NCBI GenBank assembly: GCA_950295325.1
Contig: OX485805.1
Coordinates: 12,930,501-12,994,500, forward strand
Reading direction: 5' to 3'
DNA from: Polytrichum commune
Lineage: Eukaryota > Streptophyta > Polytrichopsida > Polytrichales > Polytrichaceae
DNA length: 64,000 bases
Part shown: positions 3,116 through 10,427 of the stretch, piece by piece
Layout of the letters: each line of letters begins with the position of its first letter
How positions within the stretch are numbered: the stretch's first letter is position 1
Made by a program: the position numbers and the translations under genes
The notes under the pieces: model-generated
What the model was told of the DNA's origin: nothing
The model's input: only the letters and a program-made list of their open reading frames with translations
The model's database searches: none

Positions 3116-3166
3116 CAACTCAACTAGGATATTTTTATTTAAATCATACAATCATATGTCATGTCT

Positions 3167-3310
3167 TATATGACTGGCATGTGTTATATGACTCCCGCGT
3201 GTTATATGACTGCCATGTCTTATATGACACCCCTGTGTTATATGACTGTCATGTCTTATATGACTCCCCTGTGTTATATGACTGCCTTGGGTTATTTGAC
3301 TCCTCAACCG
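3167..3310. repeat. 18-bp tandem array, left subterminal repeats
   Basis: Eight consecutive 18-bp units starting TATATGAC (the last is TATTTGAC), with two alternating tails (TGCCATGTCT and TCCCCTGTGT types). The core TATGACTG is the same motif that crowds the right end at 9020-9290, which ties this array to the CACTA element. Confidence 0.9.
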
Positions 3311-3419: not shown

Positions 3420-3617
3420 ATGGCAGGAGGGGAGGTCGAAAGCTTGAAGCATTTACAGTTATGGCAAGAAGAAGAGGTCCAAGCAGATGCAATGCGGCTA
3501 TCCAAGTACCCATGCCCATGCATGGAGTGTGCGGGAGGGAAAGTCCTCGATCGAGCCACAATTCGAAAGCATCTTCGCAGCAAAAAAAGGGACCCTGTGT
3601 TTACAGCCTCTATCTTG
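3420..3617 (+). CDS. CACTA transposase exon 1, Transpos_assoc-type zinc module
   Basis: ATG at 3420 opens a 66-codon exon. Residues 36-53 contain a C-P-C-x2-C cluster followed about 16 residues later by K-H-L, the pattern of the N-terminal transposase-associated domain of plant TNP2 proteins (C-x-C-x2-C...HL). The exon ends exactly before GTGAGT at 3618 in phase 0, so it can join in frame either to the exon starting at 3710 (after TTTGTAG) or to the main transposase exon at 4849 (after CTCTGCAG). The usual glycine and tryptophan downstream of HL are absent, so the domain may be shortened. The start choice is the only ATG just before the domain; a longer upstream extension has no family resemblance. 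Confidence 0.6.
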
Positions 3618-3709
3618 GTGAGTCATTCCATGAAACGACTTTTGAATGAGCGTAAGCGGGTGGTCATGCGTTGAGCGAGTTTTCATCTTTGTGTACATGA
3701 ATTTTGTAG

Positions 3710-4320
3710 GCCCGATGGAGACCTATTGTAAAAGCTGCTTGCAAGACATCCCTGAGAAAGTTTCTAGGAGGACACGAAATGCCTTCACAGTCAATGCCAA
3801 ACACAACGTCTACAAGAGTACGAGCCTTGCAGACATGGGGGTCAAACGTGTATGACGGACAGTGGTGTGACGGGCCCATCCCAAAACTTATAAAGTTTTC
3901 ATACTGGAATAGAGAATGGGAAGTAAGGGTGTCCAACTTCCCATTCATGGGTTGGGGTCTCTTTGCACTTCAACCCGCCAAAGAGGGAGAGGAACTGCTG
4001 CCATTTGTAGGACCACAATACACCTTGGGAGAATACAAATCTTTGAAGAAGGCACAACCTCGAGTGAAGTCATATGCGATGCAAGTTGAGCCGGACTTGT
4101 ACATCGATGGAGAGATGTTATGAAGGGGAATGTCGCTGGCTTCATAAATAGTTCCATAGGACGCAAAGAAATAGGAAATGTGGTGTGGGAATTTCGCATG
4201 TTGCCAAAACCCTGGAACAAACAGGAATGGGGGTATGTAATCACCATAGCCACAAAGGACATTTTGGTCGGAGAAGAGTTGTATGCACATTACTCTTTGA
4301 ACCCGCACACCGCATTGTAG
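3710..4320 (+). pseudogene. SET-domain (lysine methyltransferase-like) segment inside the CACTA element
   Basis: The first frame runs 3710-4123 and the second 4120-4320. Together they spell a SET-like fold: G-W-G-L-F-A (SAM-binding GxG motif, about 3942-3959), a central Y-I-D-G-E, then G-N-V-A-G-F-I-N-S-S (where a canonical SET has NHS) and finally D-I-x-V-G-E-E-L-Y-A-H-Y near the C terminus. Family knowledge: SET enzymes methylate lysines, mostly on histones, using S-adenosylmethionine. The histidine of the NH motif is serine here, so activity is doubtful. The two frames are offset by five bases (4115-4119, ATGTT before ATG), so the copy is frameshifted unless spliced. A plausible acceptor (TTTGTAG) precedes 3710 and keeps phase 0 with the exon ending at 3617. 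There are no pre-SET or post-SET cysteines. It could be an exon of the element's own second gene or a captured host fragment. Confidence 0.65.
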
Positions 4321-4848: not shown

Positions 4849-6402
4849 GACGAGTACAGCCCGATTGACTTGTTCTCCCATGCACCCCGGACTGGGCAAA
4901 GAAACCAGACATACCCTAACACAAACGATGGACAAGATGGAGAAGTTGAGGTGCTACGTATGGTGGCAGAGTGCTTTGGCAAGTACGATGGCCTCAAAGT
5001 TGACGGACACGAAACCGAAGCCACCATACATGAGGGACTCGGGGATGCATTGGTTGAAGACGATGAAGGGGAGGATGGTTTCACAACGAAGGACAGTGAA
5101 GGTAGCGAGGGGGAAAGGGAAGAAACGAATGACCCCATGGAAACAAGAGGGAGTACCATGAACAGTGAGGACCCCAGTGGGGTAGACCACCAGAAGCTCT
5201 TATGCGAAGCTGGAACTCCACTGTATGAGGGAAGCCCATCGAACCGTCTCACATCGACACTCTTGATACTATTGTGTTGCACCACCTTCGTTGTACCAAA
5301 CAACTTTGTGGATGAGTTGCTGAAGTTGTTGAAGGAGACAATTTTACCCAATGACAACACACTACCAAAATCATTTAACGAGGCGAAAGGCTTGTTGATG
5401 AAGTTGGGGTTGTCCTACAACTCAATACATGCGTGTAAAGATGGATGTTGTTTGTTTCGCAAAGAATTGGAGAATGCAACGGAGTGCCCAACATGCCACA
5501 AATCGCGCTTTGTAGAGAACTCCAGTACAATTCCGGTCAAAGTTTTGAGACACTTTCCTTTGATTCCTCGTTTGCGAAGGATGTACAGCTGCAAACGGAT
5601 CGCGGAGCTAATGAAGTGGCATGTAGGTGGGAAAAGTAAGGACAAGCTGATGAGGTCCGTGGTGGACTCGAAGGCTTGGGACCACGTAAATAATAGGTGG
5701 CCGTGGTTTGCGGAAGATGAACGGAACGTTAGGCTTGGCCTTGCATTGGATGGCGTAAATCCATTTAGGAACCAAAGTCTCAGCCACTCTACTTGGCCCG
5801 TGGTCATACTAAACTACAATCTCCCCCCTTGGTTAGTGACCAAAAACTTCTTCATGATGCTTGCGCTAATCATACCAGGAAAAGAGAGTGTAAGGGACAG
5901 GAACGTGGATGTGTACATGGCACCGTTGATTGAGGAGCTCCAAGAGCTTTGGAAAGGGATTGACTGCTTGGACGGATCGCAAGGAAACTCCAAAGAGAAA
6001 ACATTTAAGCTACATGGCATGCTCTTGTGGACGGTGAATGACTTCCCGGCGTACGGTTTGATTTCGGGGCAAGTAACAAAAGGACATAGGGCTTGCCCCG
6101 TGTGTGGCCCCAACGTGGCAACACGGCGTTCCAAAGCGTTGAAAAAAAATGTTTATCTTGGGCATAGACGACAACTGCCAATGACCCACCAATGGAGACG
6201 ACAGAGGTCCAATTTTGATGGGCAGCCGGAGATGAGACCACCGCCAAGAAGGATGAGTGGTCGAGAGCAATAGCGATATGCGAACGAGCGAGAAGAGTGG
6301 ACGAAAAAACACTACAGAAACCAAACTGGGCAGACGACAAACCCCGTACATGAACATGGAGTGAAGAGGAGGACATGTCTATATGACCTTCCATACTGGA
6401 AA
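4849..6402 (+). CDS. CACTA TNP2-like transposase, main exon (Transposase_21)
   Basis: This exon starts after the acceptor CTCTGCAG (AG at 4847-4848) and ends before GTACGT at 6403. Order: D-E-Y-S-P-I-D-L-F start, a long acidic E/D-rich linker, then the hallmark blocks of TNP2 transposases: Y-N-S-I-H-A-C-K-D-G-C-C-L-F-R-K-E with the following CPTC, F-P-L-I-P-R-L-R-R-M-Y, D-x3-W, N-V-R-L-G-L-A-L-D-G-x-N-P-F (first catalytic-type Asp), W-P-V-V-I-L-N-Y-N-L-P-P-W, L-I-I-P-G-K, D-V-Y-M-A-P-L-I-E-E-L, and W-T-V-N-D-F-P-A-Y-G-L-I-S-G followed by A-C-P-V-C. A single in-frame TAG (6271-6273) interrupts it; the frame is open on both sides and ends in L-P-Y-W-K, the conserved junction to the next exon. 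It acts in the nucleus, cutting and joining the element ends. Confidence 0.9.
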
Positions 6403-7477: not shown

Positions 7478-7768
7478 GTGAGTTCACATTTTAGTGGAAG
7501 AACCTTAAATGCACCACCTTTCTGAGAACAACAGTCCAGACCATACGAACTACAACAAAACACATCTTTTGTGACCAAAATTCATGACTGCACTCAGTCA
7601 TATTTTGGGATTTATGACTGAGTACAATCACAAAATGTACTCGTAAAATATGCATTTCGTTGTAGTTATCGCGACACACTACGACTACTGTTGTATGCAA
7701 ATATGACTGCCCTTAGTGATTTCAGAAAGTCCCGGGTAATGTTGTGATATGATGTATCCAAAATGCAG

Positions 7769-8648
7769 GAAACACGAGGATGACATGTCACGGCGGGAAT
7801 GTGAGCGGCACGAATACAGGCGCAAGAAGCGGAAGACGCGGGTAATGTACCCAGCGGAGCTGCGCGACGAGGATTTCCACATTTGGTTTCCAAAAGCAGT
7901 AATGCGCGCCATAGAAGAAGGCACTGAGGAGGTACAAGAAGACGTTAGGGCCTTGATGTTACCTCCATCGGATGCAGCGAAGTCGTATCGATCCATGTAT
8001 GCGTTTGGAAACCACATCCATGTCCGAAGCGCACAGGCGCAATTGACAACGATGGACTCAGGAGTGGCCGCAACATTTCGACAATTATGTCGCTCGGGCC
8101 TAAAGGACACAAATCCAAAGGCAGCGGAGTTGGAGTATGTGGGTTGGGTGGAGGAAATCCTATCTGTGGACTATGGATTCTTCGAGGTGGTGGTCCTCTA
8201 TTGCAATTGGGTCGTTGCAAACATTAAGGGAGATGGGGCGACGATGAAGCGCGACGACTATGGTTTCACCATTGTAAACTTTGACAGATTGATTCCGTTC
8301 TCAGCACAATCATTTGCATTTCCTCTCCACATCGAACAAGTTTTTTTTGCACCTAACGTAGCGAAGTGTGGATGGGAAGTTGTTTTGCGCAAAGAACCGA
8401 GAGGGGTTCGAGTATTCTCCAAACAACAAAGAACGGATGAAGTACAATGCATAGCACTAGGTAGGACTTCTGATTTTCCCGGATTACAAGTGACGGCGTT
8501 TCATGACGATATCGTACCGAAAACACCCATATTGGGCGATGCAGTGGAAGTAGGGCCAGGAGTGGTTGCCAAGGCATTAGAATGTCTAGAGGGACCGGAT
8601 TACGCATCGGTAGATGACTCCGAGCACTGCGACTCGGACGGTGATTGA
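7769..8648 (+). CDS. CACTA transposase, C-terminal exon with DUF4216
   Basis: The exon follows the acceptor AAATGCAG and restores the arginine codon split across the 291-bp intron 7478-7768. The frame stays open to TGA at 8646-8648. A basic stretch (residues R/K-rich around 7810-7840) is followed by a helical linker with S-Y-R-S-M-Y-A-F-G-N-H-I-H-V-R-S. The DUF4216 region is V-V-V-L-Y-C-N-W, D-D-Y-G-F-T-I-V-N-F, P-L-H-I-E-Q-V-F-F-A-P-N and W-E-V-V-L. The tail is acidic (D-D-S-E-H-C-D-S-D-G-D). DUF4216 typically follows DUF4218 in plant CACTA transposases. The exon order and phases support one gene: 3420 or 4849 to 8648. Confidence 0.9.
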
Positions 8649-9014
8649 CTTCCCGTCCGAGGAAGAAGTTGTATTGGTGAAACTTAGGTGGGTATATATT
8701 TAAGTTCAATTATATACATGTTCAATTAGTCTCTTGGCAATAGCAAAAATCAAATTTCCTCCCCAATTTCCCCCCTATACTCCCTAAAACATCAATCAAT
8801 TAATTATTCGATCAAGAAATAAACATGGGCCATTTCCAATTTTCATTGCCGTTCAGACCCTAACACACAAAGTACTTAATTTTGACCATTATATGTCATT
8901 ATTAAATAAATACTCCAAACCATAATACTAGATAATGAGTCATGGGGCAAAAACACAAGAGGCCCGTCTAGGGCAGCCTGAACTATCAAGGGCTGCCCCA
9001 AAAAAGGAAAAAAA

Positions 9015-9306
9015 GGTCCTAGTCAGAATGTGACTGAAGAATATGACTCGCAGAAAAATGTGACTGCCACATATGACTGGGCGTCCACCATACACGTTCC
9101 CCGTCGTTCCCTATAAAGGCAGCCGTCGTTCCCATACGCCGTATACAGTACATTTGCCGAATACGACAGTAAAATATGACTGCGAGTCATATTTTTGAAT
9201 TTCGTACCCCCCAAAGGTCGAGGCCTGGGAAAATGTGACTGCATGTAGTCACCAGTCATCCCCAGTCATATTTCCCTAGTCACAAAATACCCAATATGTT
9301 GTAGTG
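9015..9306. repeat. Right subterminal and terminal repeat of the CACTA element
   Basis: At least seven TATGACTG, TGTGACTG or inverted CAGTCATA motifs lie between 9020 and 9290. The terminus reads ...CCCAATATGTTGTAGTG. A short GC-rich inverted repeat (GGGCAGCC...GGCTGCCC, 8972-8999) sits just upstream and could be a terminator or structural hairpin. Confidence 0.8.
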
Positions 9307-9452
9307 TGAACATCTGAAAAAATATTGGATGAAGGGTAACTGAATCAAAAGGGTATTGCAAGATAAAGGGCACCTTTCTTTGGCATTACCTCAAAGAGCT
9401 ATTACATGATATTGATGTAGATTAGGTTAAGGCACGGCAACACAACAGCGAA

Positions 9453-10427
9453 GGAAAGTAAGACATGAGCAATGAGCAGTGCACAGTACGCGGTGAGCGG
9501 TAACACGTGAGTAGTGAGTAGTACCACCTATCAAAATTAATAAATAATCATCATTTTAGGGCATGTATTTAAAAATATACAATGATGATGCACTTACAAT
9601 AATCATATGACCACACCATTGCCTACAACGGAAGTGCCAAAAGCCCAACCACTTAGAAAGCTTGAGAATGCCTTCTTTTGTGGTAGCCTTTAAATAACAA
9701 CCACCATGAACGAATGACATGACATTTAATATCAGCTTCATCCATTGTTTTTGCATCCTTATAGTCTTTGTATAAACGTTTGGGCTAAAATTGCAAAGAT
9801 GCATTGATGCACTTTTGCACGATTTTGTCCAAACTTTGCGACCAATTGAAAAAAACAAGTGCACTCACAACCCACCATTGGCAGACTTGGATTACCTTCA
9901 TCATATATCTTCCAAAACACAATCTAATTGGTTTGTGCATTGTCTGCCATGAAACCCTTGTAATTCACGTTCAACATTCAATTCTTCACCATGATAAAAT
10001 TCAAGTTTTTTTAGAAGATAGTATGAGTTGCGTCATCTTCGGATTGAATTTCACAACACACAATTGTTAGTATCTTACAATATTTGCTATCGTATACATG
10101 GCACGTTAGGGCAGTACAATCCTTCATACATTTGACATGGTCAAATATTATCCATGAATTCTTCATATATCTTCCAACATATATACGTTTAACAAGATCC
10201 ACACCAATCCTTGTAAGATCCACAGACATTTTGAAGACAAATACTTTGTCTTTCAATTGCCCCATAAATATATTGCCATGAATGTATTTGAATCTTGAAT
10301 GGTCTTTAAGCATCGTGTTTATTATATTATGAACAAAACGTTTGGAGCCCAATAGAAAATTATGAAAAATTGAAGAGGCAAGAGTACTAAATTTATCCAT
10401 GACAACCTCCAAAGATGAATCTATCAA
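9453..10427 (-). pseudogene. Mutator-like transposase fragment (copy B)
   Basis: Minus-strand frames at 10427-10011 and 9864-9556 match, block for block, the plus-strand relic at 42.5-44.4 kb. Shared blocks include S-W-I-(I/M)-F-D-H-V-K, (L/T)-x-C-H-V-Y-D-x-K-Y-C-K-x-L-T-I, the K-G-F-M-A-D-N-A-Q segment (between the two frames, frameshifted), C-T-C-F-F-x-x, Q-W-M-K and G-F-W-H-F-R-C-R-Q-W-C-G-H-M. The spacing of the Asp residues and the C...H-W block resemble MULE (Mutator superfamily) DDE transposases; the assignment is inference. At its 3' side the sequence GAAGGAAAGTAAGACATGAGCAATGAGC (from 9453, given here only by its motif AGACATGAGCAATGAGC) matches the complement of the 3' end of the other copy at 46.1 kb. 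Several stops and frameshifts; inactive. Confidence 0.6.

Follow-up and report, generated by a model that had tools for sequence, protein, structure and literature searches.

The SET exon and the CACTA element around it

In the window, which is the whole 64,000-nucleotide stretch of Polytrichum commune DNA analysed here, an exon coding for a SET domain is found on the plus strand at 3710-4320, ending in a stop codon (TAG) and carrying its PF00856 part at roughly 3950-4293. Two surplus bases near 4112 set the window copy apart from its sisters L006 and L008, and due to this 2-bp insertion the SET frame is split, so that two overlapping frames need joining by eye. The frame at 3710-4123 (137 codons) corresponds to the first half of PF00856 (profile positions 1-52, E 0.082, 13.8 bits), and the frame at 4090-4320 (76 codons) to the second half (profile positions 55-104, E 0.0007, 20.4 bits). 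Either half taken singly falls under the Pfam cut-off for this model, 22.4 bits, and three intact sister copies, L006, L009 and L012, with unbroken SET exons of 202, 198 and 200 codons, score 38.9-41.3 bits. With both frames matching PF00856 and the intact sisters exceeding its cut-off, this Pfam search confirms the SET-like domain that a first-pass annotation had proposed here from the letters of the window. The motifs it had named are also there: GWG and GEELxxxY are both present, and so is a degenerate N-S-S in place of NHS. Since the His of that motif is missing in all 46 intact copies, the N-S-S is not decay of the window copy. Used as a single-sequence query against solved structures, the window frame returned nothing useful.

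This copy sits in a complete CACTA element of 15,893 bp, with 29-bp TIRs and the TSD TGA. About 6.6 kb of its left part lies beyond the window: the 5' TIR (29 bp, CACTACAACAGATTGGGTATTTTGTGACT, one mismatch to the 3' TIR) begins 6,587 bp to the left of window position 1, at G000:C3:12923914. The 3' TIR, placed by repeat comparison, occupies 9278-9306 and ends in GTTGTAGTG, and the TSD follows at 9307-9309, its other copy preceding the 5' TIR beyond the window. A sister copy, L007, read together with its flank pieces, spans 15,510 bp, with TIRs identical to each other and the TSD CTC; the TIRs and matching TSDs mark both copies as complete CACTA insertions. Transposase introns and a 3-bp TSD are described for CACTA elements in the available text of PMC4158355. 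Here, the TIRs have the form CACTA...TAGTG, the TSD is 3 bp long in both of the two copies read at both ends, and a TNP2 transposase is present (Transposase_21, PF02992, E 3e-73) with DUF4218 downstream. The six window frames scanned gave matches to CACTA-type transposase domains and none to a Harbinger transposase.

Upstream of the SET exon, at 3420-3617 on the plus strand, lies exon 1, the start codon of which was picked by eye. It codes for a CPCxxC...HLRxxxxDxxF domain and closes on a phase-0 donor, GTGAGT. Against PF13963 (Transpos_assoc) it scores weakly (E 0.00069, 20.2 bits, under the cut-off of 27.7), and a partial match of 29 residues to the U-box model PF04564 is barely above its cut-off in the window (E 0.00023, 21.7 bits, cut-off 21.4) and under it in L009 and L012. 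Intron 1 (3618-3709, plus strand) ends in TTTTGTAG, with an in-frame stop right before the SET frame. Further downstream on the same strand, the TNP2 exon (4849-6273, with Transposase_21 at 5641-6267) opens at a phase-0 acceptor, CTGCAG, and ends early in the window copy with a stop at 6271, the corresponding frame of L008 measuring 565 codons. Together, the frameshifted SET exon and the early TNP2 stop make the window copy a damaged member of a family that has intact members. Two open frames follow, again on the plus strand: one with DUF4218 (PF13960; 6537-7481, E 8.4e-37), taken as the C-terminal part of the CACTA transposase, and one with a DUF4216-like end (PF13952; 7740-8648, E 6.3e-05, under cut-off). 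Repeat finding places tandem 18-bp units with TATGACT at 3162-3303, which are part of the element's repeat set. Over the 15,893 bp of the element, 54 occurrences of WTATGACT were counted, where 200 shuffles gave a mean of 1.4 and a maximum of 6; most of the 54 fall within the left 5 kb, immediately ahead of exon 1 or at the right end. Subterminal repeats are thus present, but spread inward.

Several other features were observed inside the element. Between the DUF4218 and DUF4216 frames there is a MITE-like inverted repeat (7548-7667; arms CTACAACAAAAC...GTTGTAG, 75% complementary, 10-nt loop), and low-complexity tracts lie at 669-1145 and 1308-1500, one of them readable as Pro/Thr/His-rich frames, the other rich in G and A. 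In the left half of the element, further frames run divergently on the minus strand (L078:4441-4866, L078:3940-4353 and L014:127-1053). One of these frames weakly resembles an NIF/FCP1 phosphatase over a stretch (PF03031, E 0.024, below the cut-off) in which the DxD motif is, by eye, apparently lost; it has 66 matches in the own genome, and of the 44 of these places used in a placement test, 32 lie upstream of a SET exon in divergent orientation, at a distance of no more than 20 kb.

Copies, SET-less relatives and selection

When the 137-residue frame was searched against the own genome (408 Mb), 173 candidates came up, of which 150 are scored matches. The best 39 matches (family A) are mostly 88-97% identical to the query frame, the weakest 72%, with identities of 43-49% in family B and mostly about 40-45% in the C types. 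In all, the SET exon is present in four families, A, B, C1 and C2, the latter three showing 45-59% protein identity to family A. Besides the window, 8 full and 60 short stretches were read, picked mainly from the better matches, which makes 69 loci: the exon is intact in 46 of these, with 196-204 codons, and not intact in 23, the window copy being among the latter. Own-genome matches to PF00856 come to 119 listed, all above cut-off, and 90 of the 119 lie at an entered place of the CACTA SET exon, which can therefore confuse annotation of the SET gene family. A collection of viral sequences yielded 30 pattern stretches, none of them a relative.

For a placement test, 108 of the 150 SET places were entered, after weak places, and the second piece wherever a copy gave two, had been dropped, and were set beside Transposase_21 places (150 scored of 643 candidates). 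For 71 of the 108, a Transposase_21 place follows downstream in the same orientation, 1,267-3,237 bp away; in the opposite orientation there is none up to a distance of 5 kb, and random placement (1000 times) gave at most two such pairings vs the 71 observed. By match rank, pairs were found for 31 of the first 39 places (family A), 18 of the next 21 (family B) and 22 of the other 48. Seen from the transposase side, 79 of the 150 scored TNP2 places have no listed SET 0.5-5 kb upstream. The first-pass annotation had placed the segment between the N-terminal and main transposase exons on the same strand, and this is borne out by the fixed order and strand in many copies and by the purifying selection set out below. 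A random nested insertion with its own target duplication, named at that time as the contrary case, does not fit a position that is repeated in many copies. We reject it, the place and strand being the same in many copies and the phase being the same where checked. The SET exon is a genuine, conserved, many-copy exon within CACTA transposase genes.

The surroundings of two copies may be recorded here. A family B copy is immediately preceded by two large frames of 286 and 504 aa (L010:2-2430), possibly another transposon, and a family C copy at L011 lies near a matrix-metalloproteinase-like gene (7735-9693), which was named by eye from a frame with HExxHxxGxxH.

How does the exon relate to transposases that do not carry it? 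Of ten SET-less elements read upstream of TNP2, none holds a SET match of any note there, the best reaching 4.5 bits; the other ten of the 20 SET-less rows were classed by no SET being listed nearby. In L120-L122, all SET-less, the same exon 1 is followed by the TNP2 exon 203, 558 and 558 bp further on, and in the likewise SET-less L123 and L127 the CPC motif and the transposase front share one open frame. This link shows that exon 1 belongs to the transposase and that SET is an extra exon in the following intron. In a tree of the TNP2 domain from 37 sequences (17 with SET, 20 without), all SET-bearing rows fall into a set of 30 rows in which SET-less lineages are found as well, so that the tree by itself does not show a single gain. 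The SET label needs five changes on this tree, at least four of them forced by the starred branches, where shuffled labels need about 12.6. SET-less L080-L084 are sister to C2 (99/97), and with a SET-less CACTA lineage nested beside C2, the SET exon is dispensable there; for SET-less L089, L096, L097 and L099, the place relative to the SET families is not settled by the TNP2 tree. A tree of the SET sequences themselves (17 sequences) recovers the families A, B, C1 and C2 (100/98-100) and not the branching order among them, which is in line with a long joint descent. From the shared place and phase, we infer that the SET exon was acquired once.

Pairwise counts in the SET exon gave an omega of 0.15 for L009/L010 (dN 0.104, dS 0.676, Z -4.3), 0.17 for L009/L050 (dN 0.124, dS 0.711, Z -4.3) and 0.23 for L012/L069 (dN 0.105, dS 0.465, Z -3.9). 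Closer pairs, with a dS of 0.08-0.17, gave 0.32 for L006/L008 (Z -2.1), 0.32 for L010/L050 (Z -2.6) and 0.49 for L010/L047 (Z -1.8); between families dS is mostly saturated, and no pairwise omega is therefore given there. Codon models, from which SET sequences with stops were excluded, set a free omega against omega = 1 (null kappa on a grid up to 10; omegas as reported in the logs). These resulted in a 2dlnL of about 285 with omega 0.23 for 15 of the 46 intact sequences, about 66 with omega 0.28 for 7 copies of family B, about 10.7 with omega 0.45 for 9 copies of family A, and about 6.9 with omega 0.61 for 7 copies of family C1. For the transposase exon, omega was 0.21 in L009/L010 (dN 0.176, dS 0.860), 0.14 in L006/L008, 0.22 in window/L008 and 0.71 in L012/L013. 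SET is thus about as constrained as the transposase in L009/L010, and less so in L006/L008 (0.32 vs 0.14). A dN/dS comparison among copies had been proposed at the outset, and omega is below 1 in every set tested. Judged by its codon substitutions, the SET exon is under purifying selection overall (omega about 0.23), more weakly on young branches, and such looser constraint on young branches is what a transposon family would be expected to show.

The SET domain and the protein it would form

Taken together, the sequence evidence makes it probable, in our judgement, that the SET segment serves the CACTA transposase gene as a conserved alternative 3'-terminal exon, and that a second protein with a SET domain would result, whose effect would most likely be to keep the element expressible. 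What kind of SET domain would this protein carry? PF00856 matches all 13 members that were aligned, out of the 46 intact ones, with a best E of 3.7e-11. A profile of these 13 against solved structures finds ASH1L (1.1e-5) and Set1 (1.1e-5), and then the SET domains of MLL, EZH2, NSD and SETD2. All 46 intact copies share GWG, the Asn of the NHS motif and the GEELxxxY Tyr without variation; the roles of these residues, and of the NHS His, are taken to be those generally known for SET domains. Two other models were set aside: a toxin-domain model, PF15524, matched 2 of the 13 (best E 0.0009), which we take as chance, and a bacterial SET effector model, NF043024 (NCBIfam), matched 11 of the 13, the first member reaching 28.2 bits where the cut-off is 550, which we take as general SET similarity. 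Recent capture from a host SET gene was likewise rejected, no parent being present among 11 host SET stretches. The best of these against the family profile, an E(z)-like CXC-SET exon (named by eye), reaches 18.4 bits, meaning that the source gene is old or outside the 11 stretches.

With the NHS His replaced in every intact copy, and with no pre-SET or post-SET cysteine clusters in the alignment of 13, where the protein stops 3-9 residues past the last Tyr, methyltransferase activity could be lost. The SET fold would then be catalytically dead and kept as a SAM-sensing or protein-binding module, serving for instance in dimerisation, in histone-tail binding or in control of the transposase. 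We hold this to be rather unlikely, as GWG, Asn and Tyr are invariant across four families, as if cofactor and catalysis matter, and PR-type SET domains without the His are active. Membership of the PR type (PRDM) is itself not indicated, a PR-domain profile matching one of the 13 members (E 0.009).

A different question is the direction of a chromatin effect. ASH1L, Set1 and MLL are activating SETs and EZH2 is a repressive one, and the family profile matches both kinds. Furthermore, TNPA of Spm has a suppressor role, according to the available text of PMC2613891. It is conceivable on these grounds, if somewhat doubtful, that the SET protein represses or targets, either by placing a silencing mark on the element as a form of copy-number control or by steering insertion, and does not act against silencing.

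The alternative 3'-terminal exon, which is the reading we prefer, draws on the splice phases. An exon-1 end (HLR....D..F, codon end, GT) was detected by motif in 50 of the 69 loci, with a GT donor in all 50 and GTRAGT in 46, and the donor sits after a complete codon (phase 0). The SET acceptor TGTAG opens a complete codon in families A, B and C1 (by eye), and its in-frame TAG, doubling as the acceptor, sits directly before the SET frame, whose conserved part opens right after; the TNP2 acceptor GCAG is phase 0 as well (by eye; seven copies of the same three families). The SET frame closes with a stop 3-9 residues past the last SET Tyr in A, B, C1 and C2, which excludes read-through from SET into TNP2, and the matching phase 0 of the donor and both acceptors means that exon 1 can join in frame to either SET or TNP2. 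The splice phases of A, B and C1 are compatible with exon sharing of the En/Spm TnpA type, and they suggest that transcripts in these families would be alternatively spliced into exon1-SET-stop and exon1-TNP2. A separate exon1-SET protein is likely to be made by the element.

The same phases bear on whether SET could be translated from a separate gene or from its own start, without sharing exon 1. Met codons precede GWG within the SET exon in several copies, and the motif search missed an exon-1 end in 19 of the 69 loci, family C2 included, the flank perhaps being too short for some. However, an in-frame TAG/acceptor directly upstream of a conserved frame in A, B and C1, and the fit of both acceptor phases to the exon-1 donor, make such an origin improbable. 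CACTA elements do capture host fragments, and the window copy is frameshifted, but a host gene fragment picked up by a single copy or subfamily and evolving neutrally, along the lines of the passenger exon that the first-pass annotation had offered as an alternative, is hardly tenable in view of the purifying selection (omega below 1 throughout), the same place and strand in diverged families, and the lack of a close host parent among the 11 stretches.

Under the alternative-exon reading, the transcription unit would open with one exon coding for the short cysteine-rich CPCxxC...HL domain. Joined to the SET exon, this would give a protein of about 260-270 residues, followed by the stop; joined past SET to the TNP2 exon, it would give the transposase. 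The SET protein would fill the role of a second protein, TnpA-like as in En/Spm. The N-terminal domain it would have in common with the transposase may guide it to the element's own repeats, for which the TATGACT motif is the obvious candidate, and what it methylates there may be a lysine of histones or of transposition proteins, most likely with the effect that the element stays expressible. We also put forward, tentatively, a further-reaching possibility: that the CACTA lineage built a locus-aimed chromatin writer, a spliced lysine methyltransferase on a transposase recognition domain, which would mark the element's own repeats and counter or time silencing, and which would have been acquired once before the family split, lost in at least one lineage, and selected since. 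Should the SET protein prove active, the element would encode its own epigenome editor, with a recognition domain and a writing domain that can be taken apart, and escape of a transposon from histone-based silencing would become directly testable.

Comparison with known systems

SETMAR also joins a SET domain to transposon sequence, a host gene having fused to one mariner copy. It is a single host fusion gene, whereas the CACTA SET exon is a domain carried by a mobile family.

Among transposons proper, the HarbingerS and MuDR families of Phytophthora hold SET genes (Kojima and Jurka 2014, cited in PMC12730594). As with these oomycete families, we are dealing with a DNA transposon with a SET histone methyltransferase gene; unlike in these, the transposase is of the TNP2/CACTA type and the organism group is another. 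In the element described here, SET is an exon of the transposase gene itself and follows a first exon that it would share with the transposase. In Phytophthora infestans, proto-Helentron-Pi carries a SET ORF besides its transposition protein. According to the available text of PMC4067079, this is a rolling-circle element and its SET ORF is separate and intronless, with 50% similarity to that of Clr4, whereas the CACTA SET exon is without the NHS His and lies between transposase exons.

Other elements likewise bring their own factors aimed at epigenetic marks, among them Vandal MuDR elements with anti-silencing proteins and fungal transposons bearing TET/JBP. As far as these are described in PMC12730594, the Vandal factor is a silencing regulator and TET/JBP a DNA dioxygenase, neither with a SET fold, and the fungal TET carriers are in some cases EnSpm or Plavaka and in others belong to other superfamilies.

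No SET-bearing CACTA element was recognisable by title or abstract start among the open-access literature matches listed. The earlier remark that no standard CACTA architecture includes a SET domain agrees with these matches, though novelty does not extend to SET in DNA transposons as such, which has already been published for other groups (PMC12730594, PMC4067079). A parallel in terms of gene structure is found in En/Spm (TnpA/TnpD) and soybean Tgmt*, where alternatively spliced CACTA products are a transposase and a DNA-binding protein, and where TNPA binds the subterminal repeats; the available text of PMC2613891 names no SET domain for these second proteins. The anatomy of the present element is unusually readable, with a shared first exon, a cassette that has its own stop, and SET-less relatives as a natural control. 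These findings extend SET capture from the Harbinger, MuDR and Helentron elements of oomycetes to CACTA elements.
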